Source: Termitomyces sp. T153 (Eukaryota > Basidiomycota > Agaricomycetes > Agaricales > Lyophyllaceae). From it: a stretch of 64,000 nucleotides of DNA. The notes under the pieces are model-generated. The model saw only the letters and a list, made by a program, of their open reading frames with translations. It had not been told where the DNA came from and did not search any database. Shown here in pieces: positions 8,350 to 64,000 of the stretch. A program made the position numbers and the translations under genes. The stretch spans positions 109,554-173,553 of the forward strand of contig JACKQL020000097.1 in NCBI GenBank assembly GCA_018296165.2, in the 5' to 3' direction. The first letter of the stretch is position 1, and each line of letters begins with the position of its first letter.

Positions 8350-8536
8350 ATGACCATAAACTTCCAAAATATTGTTGGAGGCATGAGTGCCATACATCAA
8401 TGGAATATTGGAGGTCACATGGAAAACTTCCAAAATGGACACCATCATAAACTTGCAAAATATTGTGGGAGGTGTGAGTGCCAGACATCAATGGAATATT
8501 GGAGGTCACACAGAATACTTTCAAAATGGACACTGT
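8350..8536. repeat. Two-copy tandem repeat, period about 92 bp
   Basis: The block beginning with AAACTTCCAAAATATTG (8357) recurs at 8449 as AAACTTGCAAAATATTG. Both contain TGAGTGCCA and CATCAATGGAATATTGGAGG in the same order. The copies differ by a few substitutions. Confidence 0.85.
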
Positions 8537-23438: not shown

Positions 23439-26400
23439 CTACAGACGCCAATCTTTGAAGAATTCGTAGTCCTTTTGGACAAAAGCAATCATGAAATCTG
23501 CAACAGAACCGCCTTCAGCATCAGGATCACCTTCAGCTTCAAATTCCTCGTTTGGCACAATTTCACTGGTGCTTTGTGATAGAGGAATAGGTCCCTCAGG
23601 TACTTCTTGGTTTTCCAAGGGTTCACTTGCTTCACCCTCAAAATCTGCTTCATCAGCACCCTGCATTGCAACCTCCTCCGTCGCTGCGACCGCTGCCGCA
23701 CGGACATCTTCTGTATCCTCGAACTCTTCCAAAGCTTTCGATAGTGCACTTTGGTCATTGAAGAGAGAACGCCAATCGAATTCCCCCTTTTGGATGACAA
23801 GATCATCCAAAGATCGCTTCTGATTGGCTTTCCGAAGTAAAGCTTCTTCAACTGTGTGCTGAGACACAAAACGATATATATGAACGTCACGAATTTGACC
23901 AATGCGGTGTGCTCTGCAGACACCTTGTCAGTATTGGACAGGAGACAATTTAAAAAAAATCATACCGATCCTCGCACTGTTTGTCCATTTGCGGATTGAA
24001 ATCGCTGTCGTAGAACACAACAGTGTCCGCGCCAGTGAGGCTAGAGATAAAATAAGTTAAGGGTTCTTAGATGTAATAGAACATGTCTCACTTGATACCC
24101 ACACCCCCTGACCTGGATGAAGCAATGAAACAAAATATCCGTGGGTCAGCGTTGAAGCGTTCTGTGATGTATTGGCGATCCTCTATCTTCGTAGCGCCGT
24201 CAAGTCGAAGATAAAGGTACCCATGAAAGTTGAGGTAAATCTCCAAAATATCGAGGACTTTTGTCATCTGAGTGAAGATGAGGATACGATGACCACCGGC
24301 CTTTTTCTCTCGTAAAAGGCGACTTAATTCTTGAAGTTTCCCGCAGTCATATTGAAGAAGCAATGGATCCGGAAACGCAATCTGTAACTTCACAGCGACC
24401 TTGTGCAACACCTCATCAAAAGTGATCGGTAAGTCTGCTATTATAGTTTTGTATCCAGGGAGCGCGAAGCGCGGTAAATCGAGTGCAACGACGGCAGGAG
24501 TCACAAAAGCAAACTTCTCGATGATACTGGCCATGTCCTCAGCACGCTCGATGTAGGATTTGACCATCGAATTTACGACGCGTGGAGACTCCCAATTTGG
24601 ACAGCAGCCTTCAAAGGAAGAATTGGGAAATATTGGCTCATAGAATTTTGCAACGGTTGCAAGCTCCTCCGACCCATAGATAGGTTCCGGTTTGCAGCGA
24701 AGACGGTTAACATAACCGATGTGGGACCAATGAGCAATTCTCCTTGCACGTTCCATATAGGCAGAGTACTTTCGAAAACCAGCTATTGTTCTAAGATCTT
24801 TTGGAGGTGGTTCTCCAGGACTTTCTGAGGCAAAAGGTAGGAGAGCAGTGGCATCCAGAAGATGTCTCGTAGTCGCAGCAATCAGCGAAACACCTTGGTC
24901 ATTGATGAACTTCAATGCGAGGAGGCGGAGGTTCAAACATTCATCCGGATCTTGTAACAGGCGACGCCGAAGTAGAAGCTCTTTGATCTCGAAATCCGCC
25001 AGAGCCGAGCGCTCCATGGCGAAAGAGGTAACGATTGACCGTACTTCAAAAAGATCTGGATGGTTGCAGACTTTGCGGAGTTGCATGAGGATATTGGCAA
25101 TTTTCTGATATATGCCGGATTGTAAAGCATCACGAGTTTGGGCGCGTGTCATGAACTCATCGTAGAGAAATCGCTGACGCTTTGACAGGGGACAGATAAC
25201 GAGATGCTCATACTTGCTGGGCAGTTCCTTTTCAACGTCGCGTTTCAGTCGTCTTAGAAGGTAGGGGCGCAAAACGGTATGCAACTTGGCAACGCGCTGC
25301 ATAGTGTCATCGTCATCAGCATTTCCCATCTCAATTGCCTTTTCAACGGGATCTGATTGGACGTAAGAAAGAAATCAACGACAAGAATAGGAGGCTTACT
25401 CGAAAACCAATCCCCAAAATCCTTTAAACTCGCAAAACTTGCACCCGACATCAGAAATTGCAGTAACGCCCAGAGCTCCGTGAGATTGTTTTGGAGGGGT
25501 GTTCCGGTCAGGAGGAGACGTCTGAAGGAACGAAACATGAGAAGGATATTCCACCGTTGGGATTTGAAATTCTTGATCATATGGGCTTCGTCAAGGATCA
25601 AATAATACCAAGCTTTCCTTTTGAAGATATGTGCATCCCGACTGGCGAGAGTGTAAGAAGTGATGCAGACGTTGAAGTGATATTTGTCGTTCCAGCCTTG
25701 CCGAAGCTCTTTGCGACGCTTCTGGCTACCATGATAACTCAGAACCCTGAACCCGGGAAGAAATTTTTTGAGTTCCATCTCCCAGTTCAACAACACACTC
25801 GTTGGTACAATCTGTTCAACAAGAATGCTCAGAGTAACGTACCAAACAGATACGCATGACCTACAATGAGGTGCGGCCCCCATATACCCCTATCGCAAGC
25901 GAGATGTGCCAATAAGGCGATCGTTTGGATTGTTTTTCTGAGAGTCAAGAATGAGATAATTATATGCGGCAATAGAGAATGAGACAAACCCCAGCCCCAT
26001 TTCATCGGCAAGAATCCCATTCAAGTTGTTAGTGTGAAGGCTTGCAAGCCACTCTAATCCAGATTGTTGGTATGGTCGAAGATTTCCTCTCAATAATAGA
26101 GGCGGGAGAATTCTAGCATCAGCACTCCAATTGACAGGAGCTACTGCAAAGGGCTTCAAGTACTCCGGTAAGGCAGTTTCATCTTCCTTTTCTGTGTTCA
26201 TTGTGTTTTCGTCGTCAAACGCTTCGCCCGAACCCTGCTCATTCTCTAACAAATCGGCAGCCACCGAGTATACAGCACTTTGAATTTGAGAGTCGTTGTC
26301 CTCGTCAGCCGACACATCTGTTCGGTGTAAGCTGTCAGAAATGATGCGAGGACTTGAATGATTAGGCGAAAGCAGAGTGTTGGCATTTGGCTGTGTAACT

Positions 26401-29009
26401 ATTCCATCTGGGAGGTTGGAACGGTCATCACCAACACTTTGAGTATGAACATAGGGCTGCGGAGAACAAACATCTCTGATGGGTTGAGAGAACGGAGTAT
26501 CGGCAGGTAATGCGGTAGATGTAGATGACTGATGACCATCATAGTTTTCAGTGTCTTCCTCGACAGAATCTGGCTCAAGAATAGGGTTGTCTGACAATAT
26601 TGACAAGGGAATGGGGACAGAAATGGATGGCGATAGGGAAGGATGACGCAGGGATTCCGCTTTGATTGACCCAGAAGACGGCAGGGACATCGACCTCGTC
26701 GGTGCTGCTAAAATGTCTCGTTCCGAGCCTGCGGCCGAATGAATATTGAGAGTAAGGGGACGTAAAGGGTGTGATGAAGAATTCAAGGGCTCCGGAGTCA
26801 GCAAGTCTCTGATCGCAGCGACTGGTAACCCGTTAGGCGTTTCATTACCGAGGACAGAGGGAAAGTGAGGTTCCTCGATCTCGCTCGGAAGTATTTTAGT
26901 CATAGATCGAGGAGTGCCAAGCAACGCTCGGGTTTCAACATCTTCTGCATCGGAGTCCTCAAGATCCTCGACACGAGATGACGCCTCGCCGATATCACTT
27001 CCTACAGAGCTCTTGAGCGCTTCATCCTCTCTTGCTTCATCCTGCTCGTCATTGGTGTCATCGCGTTCTTCGATGCCCTCTCCTTGAACCTCCTCTTCGG
27101 AGCTCGAGATGTCACCTTCGTTCTCTTCCTCTTCCTCATCGGACCCCCAAACTCCACCTGCAAGAGACATACTACTTGAACGGCTACGAGGAAGCTCGCC
27201 TCGTGTTAAGTCGCTTTGCTGAGTCTCCAAAAGTTGTCCACTTTGATCCAGAATGGCGTCTAGATGTTCACGACCACGACGAACCTCGTCGGCTTCTTGT
27301 TTGAGCCGCTCCTGCTCTCGAATATGCTACCAGTGTACCTACGTCAGTTTCAGGCTCCAGCAAGGGGGAAAAGTAAGCTCACAAAGACAGCCTTTTTCCA
27401 CTCATCCGTGACCATACGAATCGTGGCTTTTGCCAAGGCTCGCAATCTGCGTTCTTCCTGGATCTTGAGCCTCTCTTTCATTGCTTCTTGACCATCCCAA
27501 TATCCCCGGATAGCCTTCGCCCACTGACTAGCAATCTGTTGCCCCGATGACTTTCTTCTCCAAGATTGGCCAATATGACATGCGGCTTCAACGACATGGT
27601 CCCAAGGATCGTTTGACTGTCGTGGTGGGGCCAGAGACTTCCCCATATTCTCTTCGTTAAATTGGAATAATTCGTTGAAGATTGGCAGGAAGCCGCCGTT
27701 TTTCTGAAGTCTTTCTGCGCGTTCTAAGACTGACACGTCTACTTGCACTTGATGTTCTAAAGTGCTCTCCTTCACATCGTGGCCATTGAGAGTGAAGTAC
27801 GACCTTAGGAAGGTGTCCACAGAGGAGTTATATTCCACTGGTGGAGGTCGCTGTTTGGGATTAGTAATGGGAGGCGCAGGTCTACGTACGAGGAGCTTGA
27901 CACGTTTAATGTTCAGCCTCGGAAGGGCTGGAGGTGCAGAAATAGACGTCGGTTCGTGTCCTGAATGGCTGGGCAGCTTTGGAGAAGGCAAAGACGACTT
28001 TACCTGAAACCAATCAGCGAGTGGACATCCCAGATGACGAAAAAATTACCACTTCAACAGGCTTATCCGCATCAGTGGCCTTTTCATTGTACGATCTAAG
28101 CCTTCCACTTCTGCGGCTTTCGACGGAAATAGACTCGCGACCCTTGTTCTCAGCCAACTTGCGTTTCTTCGTTGGCCTGCTTGTGACGAGGTCGTCATTG
28201 TGAGGTTGCCTACGAACAACGATGACAGAAATGCTTTCTTCTGTTGGGGATGGATCATCATCGAAAATGCTAGCGTTAGCACGCTCAGGAAGGCGTTCTG
28301 CCGTACGTTCCTTCAAACCACTGGATTTTGCAGCTTCCTGTAGTATAGTAGCGTTCGTCGAAGCTCCAGCTCTAGTTTGCCTCTTAGTTCGAGAAGGAAC
28401 GGATGCAGGAGTTGGAAAGGGTGCCGAAATCGAAGATGTCTTCAAAAGTTGTTCCTGTTCTGTGCGACTACGCCGGGTTGAGCGCGAAGAACCAGCAGCT
28501 GCTTTGTCAACGAGATTGTAGAGAGAGGTTTTATACTGAGAAATAGTCCATAAACATTCTACATTTATCTTCCACAGAATGACATACATTCTGAAAGACT
28601 TTCGAGTTGTCCGTCTTGGCTTCCTGTAGAGTTTATTCAGTGTGTACATAACAGGATTGAATGTTAGAACATACTTTGGGATTGAAGCTGACCATGTTAA
28701 TGAAGTGATCCATATGGAACATCTCTCGAACCTTGGAACTCCCATGAGAGAGATACAGGTTAACGACAAGGGTACGAAACATACCAGTGTGTCATGGCGG
28801 TCCACCACCGTTTGAAGCTGCTTTTGCTTCTGAGAAATCAGGTCTTCCCTCTCTGCTTCAAAGACCTCCTGCACTACAGTAACTTTCTGAGAACCGCCCT
28901 GCTTTGCTTTGCCTCGGGGCCTGCCTTGCTTATTCCTGTCGCCTCCAGTCACAAATCCACATCCCTTTGTTTCTTGACCCTTGCTACTCCGTATCCCATT
29001 CGCCGACAT
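23439..29009 (-). CDS. SWR1: SWR1-type chromatin remodelling ATPase
   Basis: The frame starts at 29009 (MSANGIRSSKGQETKG) and ends at 23439 (..FFKDWRL). It is split by short introns. Order: basic N-terminus with NLS-like PTKKRKL; an HSA domain around 27400-27900 (SWRRKSSGQQIASQWAKAI); a long acidic region near 26900-27200 (DEEEEENEGD, SSSEEEVQGEG); helicase lobe 1 with LRPYQQSGLEWLASLH, DEMGLGKT (after a 51-nt intron), VPTSVLLNWEMELKKFLPGF, DEAHMIKNF and TGTPLQNNLTELW; RLKRDVEKELPSKYEH; and lobe 2 with ILIFTQMTKVLDILE, SRSGGVGIKLTGADTVV and AHRIGQIRDVHIYRF. A long insert separates the lobes, typical of INO80/SWR1 enzymes. The HSA and insert order favour Swr1, which exchanges H2A for H2A.Z in nucleosomes. 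Confidence 0.93.
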
Positions 29010-40556: not shown

Positions 40557-42187
<1,631 letters not shown>

Positions 42188-42816: not shown

Positions 42817-43003
42817 CCCCCGACGACACAAGCCAAAAGTGCAACAGCAAGGTCATCACGTCCCCGTGTTGCAAGCAGAGCACGAGGAGCAGGGGCGACA
42901 AAAATTAGATAACCAATAATGGAGGCGGTGCCTCCATAATAGTGGTTAAACTATTAAGAACAGATACTACACTTGATCTAAGCCAAAAGGCCAGAGTGGT
43001 AAG
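42817..43003 (-). ncRNA. U2: U2 spliceosomal snRNA
   Basis: On the minus strand the sequence reads GGCCTTTTGGCTTAGATCAA (ending at 42992 on the plus axis), then GTGTAGTATCTGTTCTTAAT. This contains the conserved U2 5' region: the U6-pairing segment and the branch-point recognition sequence GTAGTA. Next come GGAGGC/GCCTCC stem halves, a Sm site (TAATTTTTG, about 42898-42906), and a stem CCTCGTG/CACGGGG. Last is a loop with TTGCA, which resembles the SL IV site for U2B''. The 5' end is placed about 11 nt before GGCC by comparison with other U2 RNAs; the 3' end is approximate. It pairs with the intron branch site during splicing, fitting this intron-rich genome. Confidence 0.92.
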
Positions 43004-43025
43004 GAAACTAGGCGCTTGGTGGGCG

Positions 43026-43034
43026 CCTTATATA
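43026..43034 (-). promoter_or_regulatory. TATA-like element of the U2 snRNA gene
   Basis: CCTTATATA (plus strand) reads TATATAAGG on the minus strand, about 25-30 bp before the inferred U2 5' end at 43003. The spacing fits a polymerase II TATA box. Only 175 bp separate U2 from the cyclase-family gene on the other strand. Confidence 0.5.
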
Positions 43035-43178
43035 CCCGTCGGCAAAGCGCACGGACCATCCGCAGTTGATGTGATCACGAGAAATGGAATCTTGGCCGCC
43101 TATCCACACGACTTGAACTTCCTACACGATAGATCCGTACATACCTTACATACCACAGAAAACAAGCCCCAGAAATCC

Positions 43179-43856
43179 ATGGACCCAAACACAATACTCG
43201 ATCTCTCTCACAAACTCGACTCCAACGTCCACATCTACCCAGGTGATCCCGCATTCACCTGTCGCCCCTATGCCACAGTAACAAACGACGGCTACAGTGT
43301 TCACACAATTTCACTTGGTTCCCACACAGGCACCCACATCGACGCTCCATCTCACTTCTTCGCCGGCACAACAACGATCGATCAGATCCCTCTTTCCTCC
43401 CTCTTCGCGCCTCTCGTCGTCGTCGATCTAACGCAACGAAATCTCAAAGACCGACAAATAATAACATGGGAAGATATCTCGTCTTATACAGAGCTCATGC
43501 GCCCGGGTGTGATCTTAATTATCCGTACAGGCTGGTCAGCTTACTGGGGTACACCAAAATACTACAATCACCCATTTCTTGAAAGAGAAGCCTCTCGAAA
43601 AATCATTGAGCGAGGTATACGGATCATTGGTGTGGACACCTTGAGTCCAGATGAGACCGAATACCAGGGCACTGGCGGTCTCCACGGATTCGGGGCACAT
43701 CAAGAAATCTTGGGCGCTGGTGCCTTGATTGTCGAAAATTTGACAAACCTCGATCAACTCGCTGGGCACACGCATATCGGTCTCGTACCCTTAAACTTGG
43801 AAGGATGTGACGGTTCTCCTATAAGAGCTTTCGCTTGGAAAGCAGAACAACAATAG
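43179..43856 (+). CDS. Cyclase-family / kynurenine formamidase-like metal hydrolase
   Basis: The frame is open from 42942, but ATG 43179 (MDPNTILDLSHKLDSNVHIY) is chosen because the upstream part overlaps U2 RNA. The product is 225 residues without introns. It shows the metal-binding motif SHTGTHIDAPSHF, the family start ILDLSHKL..IYPGDP, RTGWSAYWG, and IIGVDTLSPDE followed by LHGFGAHQEILGAGALIVEN. This fold (KynB / cyclase 2 superfamily) hydrolyses N-formylkynurenine in some bacteria; fungal homologues of this length are common and largely uncharacterised. So the activity is inferred from the metal site only. Cytosolic by lack of signals. Confidence 0.88.
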   Translation: MDPNTILDLSHKLDSNVHIYPGDPAFTCRPYATVTNDGYSVHTISLGSHTGTHIDAPSHFFAGTTTIDQIPLSSLFAPLVVVDLTQRNLKDRQIITWEDISSYTELMRPGVILIIRTGWSAYWGTPKYYNHPFLEREASRKIIERGIRIIGVDTLSPDETEYQGTGGLHGFGAHQEILGAGALIVENLTNLDQLAGHTHIGLVPLNLEGCDGSPIRAFAWKAEQQ

Positions 43857-49910: not shown

Positions 49911-50859
49911 TGTCAGGTTCTGCTGATGACGGAGGCTCAGCTACACTGGCAAGTCCTTACTAGGTGGACGCAATGTCCTGCACTTATAACCAAGCATCTG
50001 GTATTGGTGCAGAGGGACTTGCGAGGGGGAGCTAGGGGGCGGTTCAAGCAAGTCCGGAGTGGCTCGGGGGCATCTAAGACCAAGTATACTAGTCGTTGAA
50101 CCTGGATGGGTGCCGGAGCAAGTTCATGGGCATGCAATTAGAATGCGGGGTAAGCGGAGGCTTTGTGGTTGCTGGGGGTGGAGCTGGAGTTTGACGGGAG
50201 ATTGCCAAGACATGAGGTGTTCCTGGGCCAAGCAGGAGTGAGGTCCAGGGTTGTTGTAAGAATGTTCGGGTCATAGCATGCATGTGGAGTTCGTACTGTT
50301 GTTGGAGACGAAAGGAACTTAGGAAGACAAAGGAACTATACACAGTCAAGACAAGGCAGAGACAAGGCAAGATGAGACAGAGAACAGAGATAGATTCAAA
50401 ACTAAAAACAGAGATAGTGATGAGACAAAAGATAAGACATAGGAAACCGGTAAATGCAATATCAAGACTAAAGTACTAGGGGTTCCTCTACGACTTATAT
50501 ACCTACTACTGGGCGGCTCCAGAGGGCAGAGGATATGGCGGCGGCTTGACAGAACTGCATGGAGTCAACAGTTGTTGGGTGCAATCTTGGAATGGGCCGC
50601 AGTGACATTCTGATGGGATCAGTTGGAAAGCAGATTGTTCCGGGGTTGGGGAAAGCCTTGAGAGTCCAGGGGAAATCAGAGGATGCATCAACTGCTGCGG
50701 AGAAGGTGTCGGAGTTGATCAAGGAGCTGTTGGGGTCTGCCAAGGAAGTCTTGGAGTTGCCCAAAGTGGCGCAGAGGGTGGGCGAGGGTTGGGGAGTTTG
50801 GCAGAGCATTGAAGGGGTGGCTGGGGGTGGTGTTGGGGTCTAGGGAGCGGGTCATGACA
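49911..50859 (-). repeat. Complete old LTR (949 bp), inverted, 3' LTR of the older element
   Basis: Runs from TGTCAGG (49911) to CATGACA (50859), the same terminal pair as the young LTRs read in reverse. TATA (CTTATATA) and the self-primer complement AATATCAAGACT (about 50459-50470) are kept. Many CG sites of the young LTR are TG or CA here. The polypurine tract side (CACCCCTCCTTCAGCG) follows at 50860, so this is the 3' LTR of a minus-strand element. Confidence 0.85.
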
Positions 50860-50997
50860 TCACCCCTCCTTCAGCGTCGAGACCCTCGAGATGCAGAGTA
50901 CAGTTTGGGGATTGGTGGGGCATGGGAATTGAAGTTGAGCAATATTGATCAGACCACAGTAGCGGCAGCAGCATGGGGAATGAAGTCGAAGCATGGC
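50860..50997 (-). mobile_element. Older Gypsy copy, internal segment left of the nested insertion
   Basis: This is the reverse-complement counterpart of the young element between its accessory gene and polypurine tract (60690-60829): it shares ACCCTCGAGATGC and CAATATTGATCA. It is interrupted at 50997 by the young element and resumes at 61817. Together 138 bp here and 75 bp beyond equal the 213-214 bp separating the accessory ATG and LTR in the young copy. Confidence 0.85.
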
Positions 50998-51995
50998 TGT
51001 CATGACCCGCTCCCTAGATCCCTAGACACTGCCCCCAACCCCTCCCGATTTCCCGCCTAACTCCCTGGAACCCCGCCCACACTTTCGACGCCCACACTGG
51101 GCAACTCCGACGCTTCTCTGGCAAACCCCGACAGCAACTCCCTACCCATAGCCATCAACACCCCTTGAGACCTTCCCCCACCGTTCCTGGCCACGTCATA
51201 CGTCCCCGACCCCCTACCCTAGCTCACCCGACCCGTCCCGGAGTGCCACGACGTCCCCGGAGGGGCCGCGCCCCCAACTGATCCCATCAGAATACCGCCG
51301 CGGCCCGACCTTGGATTGTACCCGACACCCATCGACTCAGCACAGCTCCGTTGACCCCCGCCATCATATCCGCCGCCCTCAGAGGCACCCAGTAGTCGGT
51401 ATATAAGTCATAGAATAACTCCTCAAACCTTAGTCTTGATATTACATTTTACCGGTTTCCTATGTTTCGTCTCTTGTATCATCTCTATTTCTGTTTCTAG
51501 GCCTCGAATCTATCTTTTCTCAGTCTCGTCTCGTCTCCGTCTTGTCTCGACTGTACATATTTCCTTTGTTCCTCTGAAAGTTCCCTTGCTCCCTACGTCA
51601 GTACGAACTCCGCGCACACGCCACGACCTGAACATTCTTAACGACAACCCCGGACCTCGCTACCCGCTCGGCCCCGGAACCCCCCAAGCCCCGGTAATCC
51701 CCTGTCCAACCCGACCCCGCCCCCCAACAGCCGAGAAGCCTCCGCCTACCCCGCAATCTACTTGTGCGCCCACTAACTAGCTCTGACACCCGCCCTGGGT
51801 CAACGACCAGTAACTCCGGTCTTAGACCCCTCTGAATTACTCAGGACTTATTCGGGCCGCTATCCCTAGGGACCCCTCGCAAGCTTTCCCCACCTCCGCT
51901 CCAACTCCGGCGCCTGGTTATAAGCGCAGGACATCGCGTCCGCCTAGTAAGGACTCGCCAGTGTACTGAGCCCCCATCATCAGCGGAACCTGACA
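50998..51995 (+). repeat. 5' LTR (998 bp)
   Basis: Begins TGTCATGACCCGCTCC and ends GCGGAACCTGACA. It is 11 bp longer than the 3' LTR because of extra GTCTC-like units near 51525-51545. In the first 430 bp I count 15 differences between the two LTRs, all transitions, 14 of which exchange CG with TG or CA. Confidence 0.95.
51400..51407 (+). promoter_or_regulatory. TATA box of the retrotransposon
   Basis: TATATAAG lies 32 bp upstream of AGTCTTGATATTA (51432-51444), the segment complementary to the primer-binding site. Spacing fits transcription start at that segment, as a self-priming element needs. The 3' LTR has the same pair at 61232 and 61264. Confidence 0.7.
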
Positions 51996-52027: not shown

Positions 52028-54538
52028 ATGTCTGCGTTTAACCCCACGTACAACCCAGTCGGTTACCCAACCAACGCCTACGGCCAGCCCATATTGGAAA
52101 ATTCCTACGCCCCATTCTACCCGGGCCCCTTCGCGGACCAATACGTACCCCGTCACTGGACCCCTGACCCCAACCAGGTGTTCTATGCCCCCTCCATCAG
52201 CCAGGGAATACCCCCGGGCTGGCGCCGCCCTCCCGCATTCCACGCCGATGGCAACAACCCCCGTATCAACCCCGGAGGATACTCCGCAGCACCCCCCAAC
52301 CCCGCCTACCTTCCCCCCGCCCATTACTATGCGTATCCAATCCCCGCTGCAGCCCCAGCCCCTCTGGAAGCTACGGATAACTATTCCCCACCCCACCCAC
52401 CATTCGCCGTTCAAACCCCTCCTTCCCCCAGGCAGCAGAGGATCGAAGCCTACGCCCAGCAACGCGACGAAGTTCTCCGCTTCCTCCGCCTGTCCCCTGC
52501 GGAATTCGCAAGGCGTACCCGCACCTTCCTTACCAGCCTAGGCTACCCCGACACCTCCGCAACTCCGGAGGTCTGGGCGGACCGACTCCTCGACTTCCAC
52601 GAACGCTACCTGCAAGGGAACCTCCCGGAGAATACGCAAGGCACCCTGGGCCTCGACGAGAACTTACGGAACGAGCTCCGCGCCTTGGTCGAAGAAATCC
52701 ACACTAGCCCGAACCCCCGCCCCTTCGAAGATCCCCTGGACCCCGCCCGCTCCTTCCACGTGCAACGCGAGGAACCCGTCGGGACACGAAACGAAGCCCC
52801 ATCTTCCGTTCCCCGCCAGCAGGAAGAACTCAACGCGGCCTCCAGCATCTTGAGGAATCTCAACCCCGCGGGGGGGCTGTTCGACCAACCCGCCGCCCAC
52901 ACCCTGGCCCTCTCCGCCCGGCCCCGGGCCAGCTCGGTGCCCAGCGCCTTCCGAACCTGGGATCAACCCGCCATCCCCGAAATCCGCTCCCAACGACCGT
53001 CCCTACGCGTCGACGACGACAACCGGACCCTCTCCTATATCGACGAGCCGGGCAACCCCGTCGACGAACACCCCCCGCGCAACGGGCCCCAACGAGACCG
53101 ACCCCCCCATTTCGACCTCCGCGCCCCTCGTAGCAACGCCCCTCCGCCCCGTCCCAACGCCCCAGTCCCCCCGCGACAGCCCCTGGGCCCCGGGGCGCCC
53201 CGACCCCCTCTGTCCGCCAACCCCTTTCGTCCCCCGCCCACCCCGATGCCTAACCCCCCCAACGACATCAACTATTTCGGACCCCCGAATCCCGGAGGAC
53301 CCTCTCCCCCTCGATGGGCCCCAGGACCCGCCCCGGGTAGTGTAGGTCAAAACCCCGGTGGGGGACCACCCAATGGCGGACCCCCAGGAGGATGGGGCCC
53401 GGCGATGGACAACTTCCCCCCCCAGCGCGGAAACGGAAACAACTACTACTACTACTACAACGCCGGACCCCCACCCCGAACTCAAAATTTGCAGGACGAC
53501 ACCCGCGACGCACTGGCCCGGGAAGGAAAGCTCGACATCCAGAAGCCCGAACCCTTCACCGGCCGCGACCCCCGGAAGTGGCGAATCTTCCTGACCCAGT
53601 GCTTAACTATGTTTCAAGCTAAGCCCATCACTTTTCAGCTTGAGAGCTCACGAGTAGCCTTCGCCACATCATACTTACAGGGCATCGCTTTCGACCACTA
53701 CACCGCGCTACTCCGGTTCGACCCAAACAATCCCGTACTCTCCCATTGGCTCGCTTTCACTCAAGAGTTCTCGAGTAAGTTTGGCGTCTTTGACACCGTA
53801 GCAGAGGCGGAGGAAAATCTCTTCAACCTCCGAATGCGCGACAACGAACGCTTCACGACCTTCATCGTACGGTTCGAACGAGAGGCCTACGAGACCGGCT
53901 GGAATTACAACGCCCTCCGGTTCGCCCTCCGTCGTGCCCTGCCCCAACGGATCAAGGACGTCCTTCGCCTCGCGCCCAAACAAACCACCTACGACGGGTA
54001 CAAGGCGCTCGTTACCCAGGTCGACCAACGTTATTGGGAAGATCGCAGCGAAAACACGGCGCCCCGGACCTCGTGGAATACTTCCGGTAACACCAACTGG
54101 CAGACCGGAGCAACCAATGGCATCCGACCCTCCATCCCCGCTAGCCCTGCTAACCCCGCACCCCGCTTCCCCCCGGGCCGAGGAGTCCCCAACACAAATC
54201 GGCCCCCGGGACAGCGACCACCCGCCCAGCTCAACGCCGCCGACCTCCACGACACCCCAGTACCTCCGGATACCAATCCCGACGACCGCGACGACATCCC
54301 GGACCCCGCCGACGATCAGGAAGCCCTATGCGCAAACAGGATCCAGGACAGTCAGTGGATTGACGTGCCGGAAGAAACGCAGGAGAAACGACGGAAGGAG
54401 GGCGCGTGCATCCTATGTGGTGAGCAGGGACATTTTATTCGCAATTGCCCTAAACGACAGGTGATGGGACGCGCCGTGTGGACGATCGACGGAGAAGACT
54501 GTAACTACCAGTTCACGGAAAACAAGTCGGCGGTTTAG
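52028..54538 (+). CDS. gag: Gag capsid/nucleocapsid protein
   Basis: 836 residues from the first ATG after the PBS. The first 480 residues are proline- and asparagine-rich, with tyrosine repeats (NYYYYYN) and few predicted folds. A capsid-like helical domain follows ([20 protein letters not shown] .. [20 protein letters not shown]), the Ty3/Gypsy retrotrans_gag pattern. A zinc knuckle [14 protein letters not shown] (C-x2-C-x4-H-x4-C) lies about 40 residues before the end. The stop is TAG at 54536. The pol frame, one base back, opens at 54505, giving a 31-nt overlap. The N-terminal proline-rich extension is long for this family. The frame is intact, consistent with recent activity. Confidence 0.95.
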
Positions 54539-54609: not shown

Positions 54610-57600
54610 ATGATGCTCGCCCCGGACAACCCCCCAGCACACCTCCCCTCCCACTCCTCCACAAACCTCCTCCTCCGCACCACTCTCCCCTTCACCGACA
54701 AGCCCATCCCCACACTAGTCGACAGCGGTGCCACCGATAACTTTGTTGACGAATCCCTGGCAGCGCTTGCCCCACAACCCCTCCGCCGTCTCCCCGCCCC
54801 GATCCCCCTCAAACTCTTTGACGGAGACTCTACCCCAGCGGGAGACATCACTCATTGCCTAGAAACGACCCTGACCTTCGCCGACGGACAACGGCAAGAA
54901 CTCCGGCTACTCGTCACAAAATTACACCCCTCCGCCCCCGTCGTCTTAGGGTTCTCATGGCTCCGCTCCACCAACCCCCGCATCGATTGGCCCAGTCTCA
55001 CCCTACGCCTCGACCGGGACAACCCCGCCGATTCCGGGCTGGTACCCTTCCATGTCCCACCCCCCTCCGAGAGCTCCGAGGCCACGATCAACCAATCCCG
55101 GACCCCGCCGCAACTTCGCTCTAGATCTGCGCGATCATTCGTCATCTATGTCCGACTTGGCGGCTCGCTCAAGGAGCTTCCCGCCCTCGTAGACAGCGGC
55201 GCCTCCGGTGTCTTCGTCAGCAATCAACTCGACCTCCAACGCAACAACCTCGACAAACCCCTCGAGCTCCAACTCTTCGATGGGAGCCCCGCCACGACAA
55301 GAATCACGCAGTACCATGACGACACCCTCACCCTTGACAACGACCTGCAGTTCCAGGCCCGACTCCTCGTTACCCAACTACCCCCGTCGACCCCGATCGT
55401 GCTCGGACTCCCGTGGCTGCGAGACGTCAACCCCGACATCAACTGGAAGAACCTTACCATGCAATTCCCCGGCCCCGAAGCAAGGTTAGCAGCCGCCATC
55501 CACCTCCGCTTCCAGCCTATCCCGGACCCCGACGCCACCCCGGATCCGACTGCTACATCCACAGGACCCGACCCCGTCGACTCCGGAAACCTCGACATTA
55601 AAATCATCGGCGCCGTCCCCTTCGCGCGCCTCCTACGAGAAGGCACCCCCGCCTTCCAGTTGCAAGTCACGCCGGCCCTACCGGAGAAATACCTCCGCGC
55701 AGGGACTATCACGCCAGAAAGGAAGACGGAGGAACAGATCCTATCCGAAGTAGTTCCCCCGGAGTATCATGAATTCGCTGACGTGTTCTCCGAAGGAAGT
55801 GCCAAGGAACTCCCTCCGCACCGCTCCTACGACCACCAGATCGACCTCAAAGAAGGCACCTCACCCCCGTTTGGCAAGATCTACAACATGTCCGAAATCG
55901 AGCTCCGGGCCCTGAAGGAATACCTCGACGACATGCTCGGCAAAGGTTTCATACGTCCCTCGATCTCCGCGGCTGGCGCCCCGGTTCTGTTCGCCAAGAA
56001 AAAAGACGGATCCCTCCGACTCTGTGTGGATTATCGGGGACTCAACAAAGTCACCAAGAAGAACCGGTACCCCCTCCCCTTAATCGGAGACCTTGTTGAT
56101 CGCCTTCGCAGCGCCAAGATTTACACGAAAATCGACCTTCGTTCCGGCTACAACAATGTCCGGATCGCTCCGGGGCATGAATGGAAGACCGCCTTTCGCA
56201 CCCGCTACGGCCTCTTTGAGTATCTCGTAATGCCCTTCGGAATGACTAACTCCCCCGCCACCTTCCAGTACTTCATGAACGACATCTTCCACGACATGAA
56301 CGACGTCTTTGTCATCGTGTATTTGGACGATATCCTGATCTACTCGAATTTGCCAGCGGAGCATTCGGAGCACGTCCGCCGTGTCCTGGAACGGCTCCGA
56401 GAATATCACCTTCATGCTAAACCCAAAAAGTGCTCATTCCACACAGCGGAAGTCGAATATCTCAGGGTCATCGTCACTCCCGACGGTGTGCGCATGGATC
56501 CCGCCAAGGTCGACGCGATACTCAACTGGCCCTCCCCGCGGAACGTCAAGGAGGTACAGTCATTCTTGGGGTTTGCTAACTTCTATCGCCGCTTCATCGA
56601 CAACTACTCCGGAATTACCAAGCCCCTCAACCGGCTCACAAGGAAGGACACCCCTTGGGATTGGGACAGCAAGTGCCAGAGCGTATTCCTCCTCCTGAAG
56701 AAGGCCTTCACCTCCGCTCCGGTCCTCCGCCATTTCGACCCCTCCCTACCGATCGTGCTCGAATGTGACGCCTCCGACTACGCTATCGCCGGGATACTCT
56801 CCCAGTCGAACTCGGAGGGCAAGGATCTCCGCCCCGTCGCATTCTACACCCGATCAATGATCCCCGCGGAACTCAACTACGACATTTACGACAAGGAACT
56901 CCTCGCAATCGTCGAAGCCTTCCGTCAGTGGCGGGCCTACCTCGAGGGGTCCCCGCACCGCATCCAAGTCTACTCCGACCACAACAACCTGCAATATTTC
57001 ACGACCACGAAACAGCCCAGCCGCCGCCAGGCTCGATGGTCCGAAACCCTTTCGGAGTACGATTTTACCATTCACTACCGCCCCGGGCGACTCGGCGCAA
57101 AGCCCGACGCCCTCACTCGAAGACCCGACGTGTATCCGAAGAAATCGTTCGAAACCGAACGAAATGCATTTAACCATCGAGTGGTAATCCCACCTGAACA
57201 TCTACATGCCGTGCTGATTTTAAACGAAGAAGGAATCCTCCAGCAAATCAGGAATTCACCCCCGGACCCCTTCTTCAACCAGCACGACCCCCGCAACAAC
57301 CCCGACGAGTCGAGCGTAGACAACCCCTTTTCGCTATCCCCGGACCACCGCCTGCTGCTCCGAAGTGGACGAATCTACGCCCCGGACCACAAGTCCATTC
57401 GCCTCGACATACTCCGGCAGCACCACGATCACAAGCTCCGGGGGCACCCAGGAATTCGTAAGACCCTTCAACTCATCTCCCGGACTTATTTTTGGCCAGG
57501 AATGAAGAAGGACGTCACGCGATACGTGAGGGCCTGCGAGCCCTGCCTACGGGCCAAAGTCCCCCGCCATCGCCCCCACGGACTACTGAAACCCCTCCCC

Positions 57601-58608
57601 GTTGGTCGCCGCCCCTGGTCCTCGATATCGATGGATCATATCGTCGAACTCCCCGATTCCGAAGGTTTCGACGCAATCCTCGTCGTCGTCTGCCGCCTTA
57701 CCAAGCAAGCCCTCTTTATTCCCTGCCACACCACTGACACCGCCCCGGATTTCGCCAAACTATTTTTAGAACACGTATTCTCCAAACACGGGCTTCCCGA
57801 CGACATCGTCTCCGACCGTGGGCCCCTATTCGTGTCTCATTTCTGGAAATCGCTGTGCAAGGCGCTCGAGATCAAGACCAGCCTCTCTACCGCCTATCAC
57901 CCGGAAACCGACGGGCAAACCGAGCGCGTAAACCAGATGTTAGAACAGTACCTTCGCCTCTACGTTAACTATTTACAGAACGACTGGCGCGCGGAGCTCC
58001 CCCTCGCCGAATTCACCTACAACAACACGCCTCATTCCACCACCGGAGTTTCCCCCTTTTACGCCAACAAGGGCTACAATCCCCGACTCACACTGTCCCT
58101 CAAGGACATCCCCTCCCACGTTGCCCACGAAGTCGCCGAGGACCTCCGGTCCCTCCACCAATTCCTCCGGGACGAGATTGACACCGCCAACCAAGCCTAC
58201 TCCAAGCATGCCAACGCCCGCCGCCAGCCGACCCCCGACTGGCCCCCCGGCACCTTGGTCTGGCTCGACCGACGAAATCTTAAGACCCGGAGGCCCTCTA
58301 TCAAACTCGACCACAAACGCCTCGGTCCATTCAAGATCCTCCGGAAGGTCTCCACCCACGCTTACAAACTCGACCTGCCTCCGGGTCTAAAGGGCCTCCA
58401 CCCTGTATTCCACGTTCGACTCCTTGAAAGGCACGCTCCAGACCCCTTCCCCGGCCAACGCCCCAGCCGACCGCCCCCCGTCGAAGTCGAGGACGAGTAC
58501 CACTACGAGGTCGACGAGATCCTCGACTCCCGGGTAGTTCGCGGCCGACTCCAGTACTTGGTCCGATGGAAGGGCTACGGGCCTGAGGACGATACGTGGG
58601 AGCCCTGA
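54610..58608 (+). CDS. pol: Pol polyprotein: two protease-like domains, RT, RNase H, integrase, chromodomain
   Basis: The frame is open from 54505 and its first ATG is at 54610 (1332 residues). Protease-like domain 1: [15 protein letters not shown] (residues 37-50) to VVLGFSWLR. Domain 2: [15 protein letters not shown] (194-208) to [31 protein letters not shown] and [11 protein letters not shown] (YLDD at 571-574). RNase [18 protein letters not shown]. Integrase: zinc finger [12 protein letters not shown], then [20 protein letters not shown] and [12 protein letters not shown] (D-D-E). GPY/F-like [10 protein letters not shown]. Chromodomain [20 protein letters not shown] ends at TGA after TWEP. 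Expression probably needs -1 frameshifting from gag. Confidence 0.95.
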
Positions 58609-58919: not shown

Positions 58920-60615
58920 TCACCCTCCCTCCTCCTCCGACCCTAACCCCGCTACCCTTCCCACCATGAACACCTCCAACTGCGCCACTACCGCCGCCAG
59001 AACCTCGGGTTGCCCGGGGAGCGGTTCCCCCACGTCCGTCGCTATCTCCCACCACGCCCCGGGGTCTGCCGTCGCCCTCCGCCGATGCCCTGCCAACAGA
59101 CGCCCCATCTGCGTTACCCCTTGGCCCAACTCCGGCGGAAGGTCCCCGGGCATCCTCGCCAACCCATCGTGAATGGACCCCAGCGCTGCCGACGCCCCGT
59201 CGAGAAGGATGCGATGCTCCCGGGCCCAGTCTGTGGAACCCGAGTCAACGCTAGGGAAAAGAAGGCGGGACAACCACTCACGAAGCACTCCTCGCCGGCC
59301 CGAGGCCGCCTCGTTGGCGAGCCACTCCTCCCGCCGTCGCGCCCTCTCCGCCGCCGCCCGGACTTCCCCAGCGCCGGAATCCTGCCGAGTCTCCCGTGCC
59401 CCTGGGTCCCCTGCCTGCTGCGCCGCCACTTCCGCCGCTTCCGCCCGCGCCTGCAAATGCACTGTCCGCACCTCCAACTCCTGCAGACGCGATAATCGCT
59501 CCGTGGCAGTCCCGACGGCGACGTCCTTGTCCTTCCGCGCCAGGTCCCGTTCCCTCCGAACCCCGTCTAACTCCCGTCGAGCCCCGTCCCTCTCCTCCCG
59601 TACCCCCTGAATCTCCCCCTCGCGTGCGACCAACAACCGTTCCAAGCCCTCTACCCGACGCCGCAGATAGGCCTCCGCAACCGACCACGACCCGTCCGCG
59701 GACTGCTCAACGGGGACTCCGGACGTAGGGGAATACCCCGCGGAACCGGGGGGGCCCCCCATTACCTGCTCGCCCCGCGCCCGCTTACTGGGACCCGCCT
59801 CGGGTGAAGGGGACGCCCTCCGTTTCCCCTTCTCCTGCCTGGCAGGGGCCCCCTCCTTCCGCCCACCCCGCGGAGGGCCCACCTTCATGACAGACGCGCT
59901 AACCCGTTCCCCCTCCCCAGCCCCGGAGCCCCTCCCCGACACCCTGCCCTTCCGTCCCTCCTCCAGCTGTGCTGCGACCCAACCCTGATCCCACCCTTGC
60001 TCCGCCGCGACGCAAACGGCCTGCCAACTCAGGGTGACGGAACACTTCTCGTGCCGCGAACGGCACGGAAGGCACACCGACATGTCCCGCCGCACCCCCG
60101 ATGCCAGTTCCTCAAACTCACACTGCTCCCCTTGTCGGGTACAAGATGCACACTGCAAGGGCATGTTGGTCCGGGAGACATGAAGCTAAGTGGCCACTCA
60201 CCGGGGCCGCCGCCTGACACCACTCGAGGGTGGGGGGACCCCTCGCCCGACCCACCGCCTCGGCAAACTGCTCCGGCGTCACCTCTGCCTGCACCACCCT
60301 CGAACCCTCTGGAACAAGTCAAACCACCCCCGGGCGAATGCCAGGCTTGGAACGCGTAGAAGTAACCACGCCCGCCGGGGGCTGCGTCGCATCCGCACCA
60401 GACGGTGGCCCTGAGGGACCAGCCACGGCTGCGGACAACTCTGTGAGGGGACAATCAGTGTTCTGGGATACATAGAACGGGCCGCACTCACGACTACGGT
60501 ACATCGCCTCGACCCGACGGCGATCTCGGCAACCCTCTGAATCTTTGGAGGACGACGGCTGGGAAGGCGGGGACAGCGACCTAGATGCTGTGGGAGAATA
60601 AGCTGAAGAAGACAT
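58920..60615 (-). CDS. Antisense accessory gene: Zn2Cys6-like, coiled-coil protein (one premature TGA)
   Basis: Start ATG 60615 (MSSSAYSPTASRSLSPPSQP). Exons 60492-60615, 60202-60440 and 58920-60152 are joined by introns of 51 and 49 nt with good GTGAGT donors. An in-frame TGA (60319-60321, codon 82) breaks exon 2. The older copy has TGC there. The rest would give 531 codons. Exon 3 opens with C-x2-C-x6-C-x15-C-x2-C-x6-C (CASCTRQGEQC .. CLPCRSRHEKC), the fungal Zn2Cys6 layout with a long linker. Next is a basic Ser/Pro-rich region (KGKRRASPSPEAGPSKRARG), a long coiled coil (GLERLLVAREGEIQGVREER..), and a final helical domain (HRILLDGASAALGSIHDGLA). Likely nuclear and DNA- or chromatin-associated; function is unknown. 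Confidence 0.8.
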
Positions 60616-60817
60616 CGCAACAAGCTGGCGGACTCCTGGGTGCGTCCACCCCTTTTTAATGAATCAAGAAGGGGCCCCTGACGAATGGCGGCCGCACCTC
60701 AACTTCCTTCCCCACGCTGCCGCCGCTCACTGCGGTTTGATCAATATTGATCAACTTCGATTCCCACGCCCTACCGATGCCCGACTCGCTCCCCGCATCT
60801 CGAGGGTCTCGACGCTG

Positions 60818-60826
60818 AAGGGGGGG
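60818..60826 (+). other. Polypurine tract
   Basis: AAGGGGGGG, followed by TGA and the 3' LTR start at 60830. Position and composition fit the plus-strand primer of a retrotransposon. Confidence 0.7.
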
Positions 60827-60829
60827 TGA

Positions 60830-61816
60830 TGTCACGACCCGCTCCCTAGATCCCTAGACACTGCCCCCAACCCCTCCCGATTTCCCGCCTAACTCCCCGG
60901 AACCCCGCCCACACTTTCGACGCCCACACTGGGCAACTCCGACGCTTCTCCGGCAAACCCCGACGGCAACTCCCTATCCGTAGCCATCAACACCCCTTGA
61001 GACCTTCCCCCACCGTTCCTGGCCACGTCATACGTCCCCGACCCCCTACCCTAGCTCACCCGACCCGTCCCGGAGTGCCACGACGTCCCTGGAGGGGCCG
61101 CGCCCCCAACTGATCCCATCAGAATACTGCTGCAGCCTGACCTTGGATTGTACCCGACACCCGTCGACTCAGCACAGCTCCGTCGACCCCCGCCATCATA
61201 TCCGCCGCCCTCGGAGGCACCCAGTAGTCGGTATATAAGTCATAGAATAACTCCTCGAACCTTAGTCTTGATATTACATTTTACCGGTTTCCTATGTTTC
61301 GTCTCGTGTATCATCTCTATTTCTGTTTCTAGGCCTCGAATCTATCTTTTCTCAGTCTCGTCTCATCTCGACTGTACATATTTCCTTTGTTCCTCTGAAA
61401 GTTCCCTTGCTCCCTACGTCAGTACGAACTCCGCGCACGCGCCACAACCTGAACATTCTTAACGACAACCCTGGACCTCGCTACCCGCTCGGCCCCGGAA
61501 CCCACCAAGCCCCGGTAATCCCCTGTCCAACCCGACCCCGCCCCCCAACAGCCGAGAAGCCTCTGCCTACCCCGCAATCTACTTGTGCGCCCACTAACTA
61601 GCTCTGACACCCGCCCTGGGTCAACGACCAGTAACTCCGGTCTTAGACCCCTCTGAATTACTCAGGACTTATTCGGGCCGCTATCCCTAGGGACCCCTCG
61701 CAAGCTTTCCCCACCTCTGCTCCAACTCCGGCGCCTGGTTATAAGCGCAGGACATCGCGTCCGCCTAGTAAGGACTCGCCAGTGTACTGAGCCCCCGTCG
61801 TCAGCGGAACCTGACA
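60830..61816 (+). repeat. 3' LTR (987 bp)
   Basis: Begins TGTCACGACCCGCTCC, ends GCGGAACCTGACA, and matches the 5' LTR over its length apart from transitions and the 11-bp length change. Confidence 0.95.
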
Positions 61817-61891
61817 TGGCCGCCGCTCAGGGGGTTCTTTCCTAGTCATTGAAAAGAATCAGACATACTCTGGGGTTCCCAAACTTTTCCA

Positions 61892-63582
61892 ATGTCATCT
61901 TCCACGTATTCTCCAGCAGCGTCCCCCTTCCCATCGGCACATACCTCGACTTCTTCCTTGGAGGACTCTGAGGGTTGGCAAGACCATAGGCGGGTGCAAG
62001 CAATGTACCGTAGTCATAAGTACCGTCTCTTGCTCGTCGTGGCCAGAGTGCTTGAATATGTCCCATCAGAGTTGTTGGCGGCAGTGGCGGGCCCCTCGGG
62101 GCCTATGTCAGGGGAGGTTCCAGCACAGTCAGCAGGGGAAATGGTCCTCGCTTCTCACTCCAGGTCTGGTATGGTCCCCAGAGTGGTCTGCCCTGTCCCT
62201 ATGGGGTCAAGAGTCACACAGGTGGACATGACGCCGGAGTACTTTGCAGAGGCCATGGGGCAAGCAAGAGGTCCCCCAATGTTGGAGTGGTGTCAGGCAG
62301 TGGCCCTGGTGCGTCATTGGCATGTTCCTTCCCTATTGAACTAACCCATGTTTCTAGTGCGCGTCCTGTACCTGGCAGGGTGAACAGTGCAAGTTTGAGG
62401 AGCCCATGCCGGGAGTGTGGCGGAACACGTCAGTGTGTCTCCTGTATCACTTGCAGCATGAGAAGTGCTCTGTCACTCTGAGTTGGCATGCTGCTTGCAT
62501 TGCGGCAGAACAGGGGTGGGATCGCAAGTGGGTTGCAACGCAGATGGAGGAGGGCGGAGGGGTAGGGTCTCAGGGAGGGGTTCCAGGGTAGAGGGGGGAG
62601 TTGGTGCGGGGCGGCCCCCAATGAAGATTGGGCCCCTGTGGGGTGGGCAGAGGGAGAGGGCCCCTGCAATGCATGACAAGGGTAAATGGAGGGCGTCCCC
62701 CTTGCCAGAGGTGGGGCCTAGCAAGTGGGCATGGGGGGAGCTGGCGATGGTGGGCTCTCCTGGTCCTACAGTGTATTCCCTGACTTCTGGGACCTTGGTT
62801 GAGCCGTCTGTGGGAGGGTTGTGGTCGATTGTTGAGGCTTTCCTGTGGCATTGGGCGGAGGAGTTGGAGAGGTTGTTGGCCACATGTGGGGAGGAAGTCC
62901 ATAGGGTGGGGGAGGAGAGGGATGGGTTTTGGAGGGAACTGGACAAGGCTCAGAAGGAATGGGACTTGGTGCATAGGGATAAAGATATCACTGTGGAGAC
63001 TGCCACAGAGCGGCTGTTGCAGCTTCAAGAGCTGTGAGCATGCATGAGGCAGTTGGAGGTGCAGGCAGAGGTGGCGGGGCAATGATTGGAGGGGTCAGGG
63101 ATGCAGGGAACTCAGCGGGGGCCCAGTGCAGAGGTGACCCAAGTGATGGCAGAGAGGGCACGGTGGTGGGAAGAGTGGCTTGCCAACGAGGCAGCCTCGG
63201 GGTGGCAGGGAGTGCTCCATAAGTGCCCTCTTCATCTCTCATTTACTACGAGCTGACATTCGATTCCATAGACTGGGCCAGGGAGCATCACATCCTCCTT
63301 GACAGAGCATCAGTGGCGCTGGGGTCCATTCACAATGGGCTGGCAAGGATGCCCAGGGATCTCCCACTGGAGTTGGGGCAGGGGGTCATGCAGATGGGGC
63401 GTCTGCTGGTGGGACATCAGCGGAGGGCAATGGCGGACCCTGGGGCATGGTGGGAGGTGGCGGTGGATGTGGCAGAGCCACTCCCGGGGCATCCCAGAGT
63501 CCTGGCAATGGTAGTAGCGCAGCTGGAGGTGGATCTGGTGGGAAGGATAGCAGAGGTAGATTCAGGGGGGGAGGGGGAGTAG
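61892..63582 (+). pseudogene. Decayed copy of the accessory Zn2Cys6-like gene
   Basis: Homologous to the antisense gene of the young element over its whole length. It starts MSSSTYSPAASPFPSAHTST; the same two introns are seen, with donors near 62020 and acceptor before TGCGCGTCC near 62361. The coding block MTPEYFAEAMGQARGPPMLE and CASCTWQGEQC agree. The second cysteine half has lost one Cys (CLLY in place of CLPC). Downstream stops occur, e.g. TGA after LLQLQEL (63036-63038), and the frame resumes to AEVDSGGEGE at 63582. In this copy codon 82 is TGC, not TGA. Losses fit CpG decay (CGG to TGG, CGC to CAC, TGC to TAT). Confidence 0.85.
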
Positions 63583-63890
63583 GGGCTTTCTGGATTCCGG
63601 TGTCTCATTGCCCCGCGCTCCCTTATCCCTATATTTTGTATTTGTAGCCTTGTTAACATTGGACTCCCTGCACTTCTGCTGAGCATGAGAAATTTTCAGA
63701 ATGAGTGAGGGGCAAAGTAAGTGAAAACATATAGAGGAGTACTCGTGGGAGTTGAATCCCTGATAAATCTAGAGGCAGGGGTTACACCCACTGATGCCAT
63801 CTGCACTTGCTAGTCCTGGAGGTCCCGGGGCTTGGTGGGGTGTTGTTGATGGAAGTTCTAGAGTTTGTTGGGGGCTCCGTTGAGGTTTTT

Positions 63891-64000
63891 TCAGGGCTCT
63901 CATGTGTTGTCCTCAGGTCCATAGCCCTTCCAGCAGACCAAGTACTGGGGTTGTCCGCGGACCAAGCGGGAGTCAAGGATCTGATCCTTGATTGGCAGTG
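63891..64000 (-). pseudogene. 3' end of decayed pol (chromodomain) of the older copy
   Basis: Minus-strand frame reads [20 protein letters not shown], then GYGPEDNT, a stop where the young copy has Trp (TGG to TGA), then EP and TGA. The final TGA after EP is at the same codon as in the young element, so it predates the split of the two copies. Continues beyond the window. Confidence 0.8.

Follow-up and report, generated by a model that had tools for sequence, protein, structure and literature searches.

A predicted three-intron antisense gene of Termitomyces Gypsy retrotransposons, conserved between two element families, may encode a trans-acting DNA-binding protein

How a gene with introns can be kept, on the opposite strand, by an element that moves through an RNA intermediate, and what its product might do, is the question raised by the last 13 kb of the window (the whole 64,000-nt stretch of DNA analysed here), which contain a Ty3/Gypsy element. 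Its LTRs, at 50998..51995 (5', plus strand, with the ends TGTCA..TGACA read directly) and 60830..61816 (3', plus strand), are 96.4% identical over 999 aligned columns, and TGGC, read directly on both flanks (50994-50997 and 61817-61820), represents a 4-bp target duplication. Inside the LTR pair, on the plus strand, are gag (52028..54538; 836 aa; Pfam Retrotrans_gag, 3.3e-07) and pol (54610..58608; 1332 aa), in which Pfam recognises protease, RT, RNase H, integrase, and a C-terminal chromodomain, the content of a chromovirus-type Ty3/Gypsy element. A purine tract resembling a PPT (60817..60829, plus strand; read directly) adjoins the 3' LTR, and the same tract is present in L080 and L081, two elements of the family named C below. 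The young element is inserted within an older, inverted element of a family named B (window 49911-50997 and 61817-64000); the insertion point is in the spacer that separates the older element's antisense gene from its 3' LTR.

The antisense gene (60615-58920, minus strand) is located in the interval from pol to the 3' LTR, exactly where the original prediction had placed it. It consists of four exons and three predicted introns. Exon 1 (60492..60615), with the ATG at 60615, is the same exon as in full-length Termitomyces models (e.g., P0004, P0012, and P0017). It is followed by intron 1 (60441..60491; 51 nt, GTGAGT..CAG), whose GTGAGT..CAG is found in 44 of 50 copies of family A, the family of the young element, and whose sites are co-located in most B and C rows; by exon 2 (60202..60440); and by intron 2 (60153..60201; 49 nt, GTGAGT..CAG), present in all 50 copies with a length of 49 or 50 nt. 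Exon 3 (59282..60152) encodes most of a cysteine module, a basic stretch, and a long helix, and after intron 3 (59231..59281; 51 nt, GTGAGT..CAG) exon 4 (58920..59230) adds a conserved C-terminal helical domain and the stop. The spliced product has 514 residues and is equal in length to the Termitomyces model P0004. The two introns described originally (60491-60441 and 60201-60153) are right, but the third (59281-59231) had been missed. Its interval is free of stops in 49 of the 50 family A copies and therefore resembles coding sequence there. An in-frame stop occurs in it in 7/7 copies of B and 8/8 copies of C, and it is spliced at the same junction in 11 of 17 aligned database models, from several families, the others (e.g., P0003) reading through. 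A two-intron gene model was rejected in favour of three.

In the window copy, exon 2 is interrupted by an in-frame TGA (60321-60319, codon 82), and the whole spliced protein cannot be made from it. Besides the window's copy, the 50 copies of family A include the 48 that follow it in the ranking of exon-3 matches and one ranked slightly lower, a choice biased toward a good exon 3. The four-exon frame of 514 residues is open, with GT-AG at all introns, in 31 of them; in the remaining 19, there are stops, a deletion, or splice sites that have been lost. The donors lost in this family are GT to AT changes (five at intron 1 and four at intron 3), which would fit CpG decay. Stops at codons 30, 42, 127, and 128 recur in several copies between L029 and L048, by shared ancestry or by repeated decay. 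In the alignment of A, B, and C, the splice sites are found in the same places. Two other explanations of the open frame were considered. The possibility that it is open by chance in GC-rich DNA is rejected by the stop counts per frame: in the 27 closest copies, exon 3 has on average 0.04 stops in the gene frame and 2.9-5.2 in the other five frames, and exon 4 has 0.04 in the gene frame, with two other frames nearly as open (0.07 and 0.22). A plus-strand protein was rejected as well: one plus-strand frame shares wobble sites with the gene and shows a similar ratio of nonsynonymous to synonymous variants (N:S), 47:57 in exon 3, but its mean number of stops is 3.1 for exon 3 (0.2 for exon 4), and it leaves the splice sites and the cysteines unexplained.

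If the gene is part of the element, it should travel with pol. The exon-3 protein matches at least 101 places in the genome (72.4 Mb, 307 contigs). The gene was found downstream of 81 of the 103 pol-end matches listed, 81 times in antisense and never in sense orientation, and in 71 of these 81 pairs, the distance from pol is 300-339 nt. Three of the 22 pol matches without a listed gene were read, and all three carry it, so that it is present at 84 of 84 pol places resolved among the 103. In the opposite direction, antisense pol is listed for 78 of the 101 gene places listed; three of the other 23 were read and all have pol, the remaining 20 being left out of the count. The check for host genes away from Gypsy elements, named beforehand as one that could overturn the idea, thus favours an element gene, and copies of a host gene are disfavoured by this regular pol partner. 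In most copies, the gene is antisense between pol and the 3' LTR, which is the position of an aORF-3R. All protein relatives among the matches listed are from Termitomyces, with identity up to 96% over the matched part, and none is from outside the genus; two of the protein searches scored about 8000 candidates, and one gave the best 120 of 133 matches. Within these 120 database models, 13 from named Termitomyces strains (P0011, P0023, P0026, P0043, P0044, P0068, P0074, P0089, P0090, P0098, P0100, P0105, and P0111) extend into reverse-complement pol, which reveals the same neighbourhood in those strains. The viral and prokaryote contigs searched contain no homologue. The number of exon-3 matches, the antisense arrangement beside pol, and the shared splice sites support the earlier view that the gene belongs to the element family by inheritance and not by chance capture. 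The persistence of its introns would follow from its orientation, because the genomic RNA is the opposite strand and has no introns there.

Selection was assessed on 50 copies of family A, 7 of B, and 8 of C. Within A, variants found in a single copy are distributed over the codon positions as 56/48/68, with N:S of 101:65 and six stops, and variants found in more than five copies as 28/32/75, with N:S of 61:74 (Fisher p 0.0076 for shared vs single-copy N:S). A check on dN/dS among copies had likewise been named beforehand as one that could overturn the idea, and its outcome is favourable: shared variants are biased toward synonymous changes, and single-copy variants are not. In the 3' end of pol, used as a positive control, N:S goes from 32:13 for single-copy to 8:26 for shared variants (p 3.6e-5), and constraint on the antisense gene in A is weaker than on pol. 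Fixed or nearly fixed differences between A and B are distributed as 53/48/119 with N:S of 97:121, compared with 169:47 and 157:47 in the shifted frames, and the pattern is unchanged when CpG transitions are removed (46/40/101). The divergence amounts to 0.18, 0.19, and 0.42 at the three codon positions and to 0.43-0.57 of sites in the introns, which diverge like third codon positions. These substitution patterns indicate that purifying selection has acted on the gene between A and B, and protein-level conservation, a further mark of an aORF-3R, holds within A and between A and B. The comparisons with family C, made on poorer alignment and old copies, give no third-position excess for A vs C (93/75/89; N:S of 166:89, close to the shifted-frame controls of 163:81 and 171:70) and no clear excess for B vs C (81/53/87; N:S of 140:78).

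Families B and C show in what company the gene is carried. The older inverted element holds a degraded copy of it (61892..63582, plus strand), which had been described as the same gene with the same introns. It is indeed a relative with the same layout, but it represents another family (72% DNA identity to the young copy over 1671 columns) and is a pseudogene with stops and with AT instead of GT at donors 1 and 3. Family C contains the genes resembling P0118 (103 candidates scored). At the six C loci brought in, no pol match was found within 1.5 kb of the gene. Two C elements, L080 and L081, were examined closely; in each, the LTR pair is flanked by an exact 5-bp duplication (CTAGG in L080 and AGCTT in L081) and the antisense gene is in its usual place, and neither has gag or pol between the LTRs, the gag/pol matches in L081 (6682-8073) being at and beyond the right LTR, whose end is 6732. 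Their LTR ends and the spacer beside the 3' LTR are related to those of A (74% over about 190 nt), as is the start of the internal part in L081. Both elements contain a long proline-rich internal stretch in which no gene was recognised (L080, 1146-3940; L081, 394-3760). One more locus of C, L079, has undergone rearrangement. LARDs and similar non-autonomous LTR elements consist of LTRs, target duplications, and a long internal part without gag-pol. L080 and L081, each with an LTR pair and a target duplication and without gag-pol, have this layout, but they keep the antisense gene. It seems, then, that family C consists of non-autonomous elements that retain the antisense gene without gag or pol, and such carriers separate the gene from gag-pol.

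The most characteristic part of the predicted protein is an eight-cysteine module, W-C-x5-C-x2-C-x6-C-x15-C-x2-C-x3-H-x2-C-x9-C (60012..60222, minus strand; codons 115-168), which is split by intron 2. Each of its cysteines is kept in 50/50 copies of A, in 6 or 7 of 7 copies of B, and in 7 or 8 of 8 copies of C, and one histidine is conserved beside them. The module is followed by EQGW and WV motifs, the basic stretch, the long helix, and the C-terminal helical domain. Both the basic stretch, read directly, and the coiled coil had been anticipated; the latter corresponds to a long coiled-coil-like helix (residues 281-330 of P0004, AF2 pLDDT above 90), and the C-terminal domain reaches 66-83 at 381-460. 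For the cysteine module, pLDDT is about 40 when the full protein is modelled and about 55 when the fragment is modelled alone, so these models are weak for its fold; Foldseek gave no match at E <= 0.001 from them, and nothing usable came from the structure and PDB sequence searches.

The six-cysteine motif with a linker of 15 was reported correctly with respect to its order, C-x2-C-x6-C-x15-C-x2-C-x6-C, but not six cysteines only are conserved, eight and a histidine are. Its assignment to Zn2Cys6 is not supported. In Zn2Cys6 proteins, the spacing is C-x2-C-x6-C-x5-12-C-x2-C-x6-8-C, and basic residues are typically found in the first loop. The module shares with fungal regulators of this type (Zn_clus, PF00172) the order of two CxxC-x6-C halves and a coil in the same protein, but differs in the linker of 15 residues and in the two further conserved cysteines, and it carries its basic residues, read directly, in the second loop. 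The window protein scores 13.3 bits and P0004 11.1 against a Pfam cut-off of 21; in a comparison of PF00172 with 30 members, 13 match at E <= 0.5 (best 0.0052). The 21 genomic places above the cut-off include none of the listed copies of the antisense gene. Zinc may be bound by the conserved cysteines, and the product is likely a cysteine-rich nuclear protein that has a coiled coil and binds DNA.

The region above the gene is conserved as well. A TATA-like ATTAAAAAGG (60651..60660, minus strand) lies 36-45 nt upstream of the antisense ATG, and ATTAAAAGG or ATTGAAAAGG is found about 40 nt above the ATG in aligned copies of the three families (one of A, three of B, and two of C); a fourth B row, L063, has another sequence where the box is expected. 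Toward the 3' LTR follows a perfect 18-bp palindrome (60737..60754), part of the putative antisense promoter, which is present in 47 of 50 copies. The genome contains 144 exact sites of it, compared with 0 for the reversed-string control, and 37 of the first 50 of these sites adjoin a listed gene. Its core, AATATTGATCA, is also found in the B copies read and in the C copy L080 and is not intact in L081; the perfect 18-bp form is that of family A. It may be that the palindrome is conserved only because it lacks CpG. On the basis of the conserved TATA-like block and the palindrome, we propose an antisense promoter belonging to the gene itself and a product, likely dimeric, that would bind the DNA of the element.

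The function of antisense additional genes of LTR elements is not known, according to a review (PMC7264820). For the gene described here, the likeliest role of the product would be that of a trans-acting DNA-binding regulator. The eight cysteines and the histidine, the long helix, the conserved upstream block, and the retention of the gene in C elements without gag-pol are the points in favour of it. It is proposed that antisense transcription would start from the promoter between the ATG and the 3' LTR and that the three introns would be spliced out of the transcript. The module of the protein would bind zinc, the long helix would serve dimerisation, and the basic stretch would serve nuclear entry. 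The protein might then bind near the AATATTGATCA palindrome and act in trans, by activation or anti-silencing, so that the elements stay transcribed. We regard as evenly balanced the full proposition that the antisense three-intron gene of this Gypsy family, under purifying selection in A/B, encodes a trans-acting DNA-binding protein which keeps the elements transcribed. A wider form of the proposition, which we consider rather unlikely, is that the gene provides an anti-silencing or activator protein shared by a community of retrotransposons, the autonomous A and B and the gag-pol-less C. All three carry the gene and the upstream block, and in this wider form a regulator, not the replication machinery, would be the one gene that all keep. 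The anti-silencing ORFs of VANDAL elements, which are plant DNA transposons, follow a comparable principle as far as it is outlined in PMC11728184, namely an element-coded factor proposed to shield its family from silencing; the likeness is one of analogy only, as both the class of the element and the protein are different.

Among retrotransposons, closer counterparts have been described. The original prediction knew of no fungal case, but in Botrytis cinerea the element Boty (BcGypsy1) carries brtn, an antisense gene (Zhao et al., 2011, as reported in PMC7264820, PMC8365987, and PMC4227169). Boty resembles the element in the window in being a fungal Gypsy element whose gag-pol includes a chromodomain and in having its extra gene in antisense, after pol and before the 3' LTR. 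In the passages of these sources that concern brtn, introns, a cysteine module, and a non-autonomous carrier are not mentioned, and the comparison is one of descriptions, made without the brtn sequence. In plants, antisense aORFs are known from the Gypsy elements Grande (gene23), RIRE2, Retand, and PvRetro13, with the same position and orientation and present in most family copies; some of their proteins are nuclear, and gene23 has its own antisense promoter (PMC7264820). By description, their proteins differ, having transposase-28 or SMC domains, and the sections concerned describe neither introns nor a cysteine module (PMC7264820). In these accounts, three features of the present gene are not mentioned for the plant and Boty cases, namely introns at three conserved positions, the module of eight cysteines, and a carrier devoid of gag-pol, and, on the same basis, a measure of selection on a fungal antisense additional gene is newly provided here. 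No paper on this particular antisense gene was found in the open-licence literature. The open frames in 31 of 50 copies, the measured selection, the three introns, and the gag-pol-less carriers make the question of function testable, the introns being a simple marker of real antisense expression.

Of the other explanations, the one that survives best, though we consider it rather unlikely, is that the protein is an accessory of transposition, acting in nuclear import of the pre-integration complex or, together with the chromodomain, in the choice of integration sites, and not a regulator of transcription. A basic stretch and a long helix would suit such a protein, and similar nuclear functions have been suggested for plant antisense ORFs (PMC7264820). 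However, the antisense orientation and the promoter-like block of its own would separate the gene from gag-pol expression, a chromodomain is already present in pol, and the C elements carry the gene without gag-pol. These points weaken the accessory role without being decisive. It is improbable, and more so than an accessory role, that the antisense transcript rather than the protein matters, by pairing with the genomic RNA to form dsRNA and small RNAs that damp transposition. Such a transcript would be complementary to the sense genomic RNA along its whole length, and a role of this kind has been proposed for the antisense aORFs of plants (PMC7264820); an effect of RNA only would not, however, predict constraint at the protein level with free introns, cysteines kept in three families, or a four-exon frame that stays open in 31 of 50 copies.

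Two explanations are weaker still. We strongly doubt that it is a hitchhiking passenger, captured once and of no benefit to the element: the constraint below that of pol and the C path without third-position excess would be expected of a passenger, but the purifying selection on the A-B path, the presence at every resolved pol place (84 of 84, among 103), and the lack of homologues outside Termitomyces among the protein matches listed speak against it. Equally hard to credit is an origin by capture of a genuine Zn2Cys6 transcription factor of the host, for which the six cysteines in the right order and the weak PF00172 matches could be cited, since the bits shown are below the cut-off, the linker, the two extra cysteines, and the loop bearing the basic residues do not fit, and none of the 21 places that pass is a listed copy.

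Some observations concern the surroundings of the element. Ten contigs start (C10, C112, C289, and C241) or end (C136, C121, C62, C170, C246, and C180) close to the outer edge of the element's 3' LTR, at a distance of about 40 bases or less. The idea of telomere targeting, suggested by contigs that terminate at the LTR edge, was rejected, as no telomere repeat is found in the last 120 bases of these ten ends; they are probably assembly breaks at a recent repeat. Elsewhere in the window, pieces of an SNF2-type chromatin remodeller with an HSA domain (24088-29009, minus strand) probably represent a single host gene split by introns, and pieces of a subtilase (40939-41769, minus strand), a putative cyclase (42942-43856, plus strand), and a HEAT-repeat gene (16401-17396, minus strand) were recognised. 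Two direct repeats of 88 nt, 90% identical and 91 nt apart from start to start, are located at 8355-8533.
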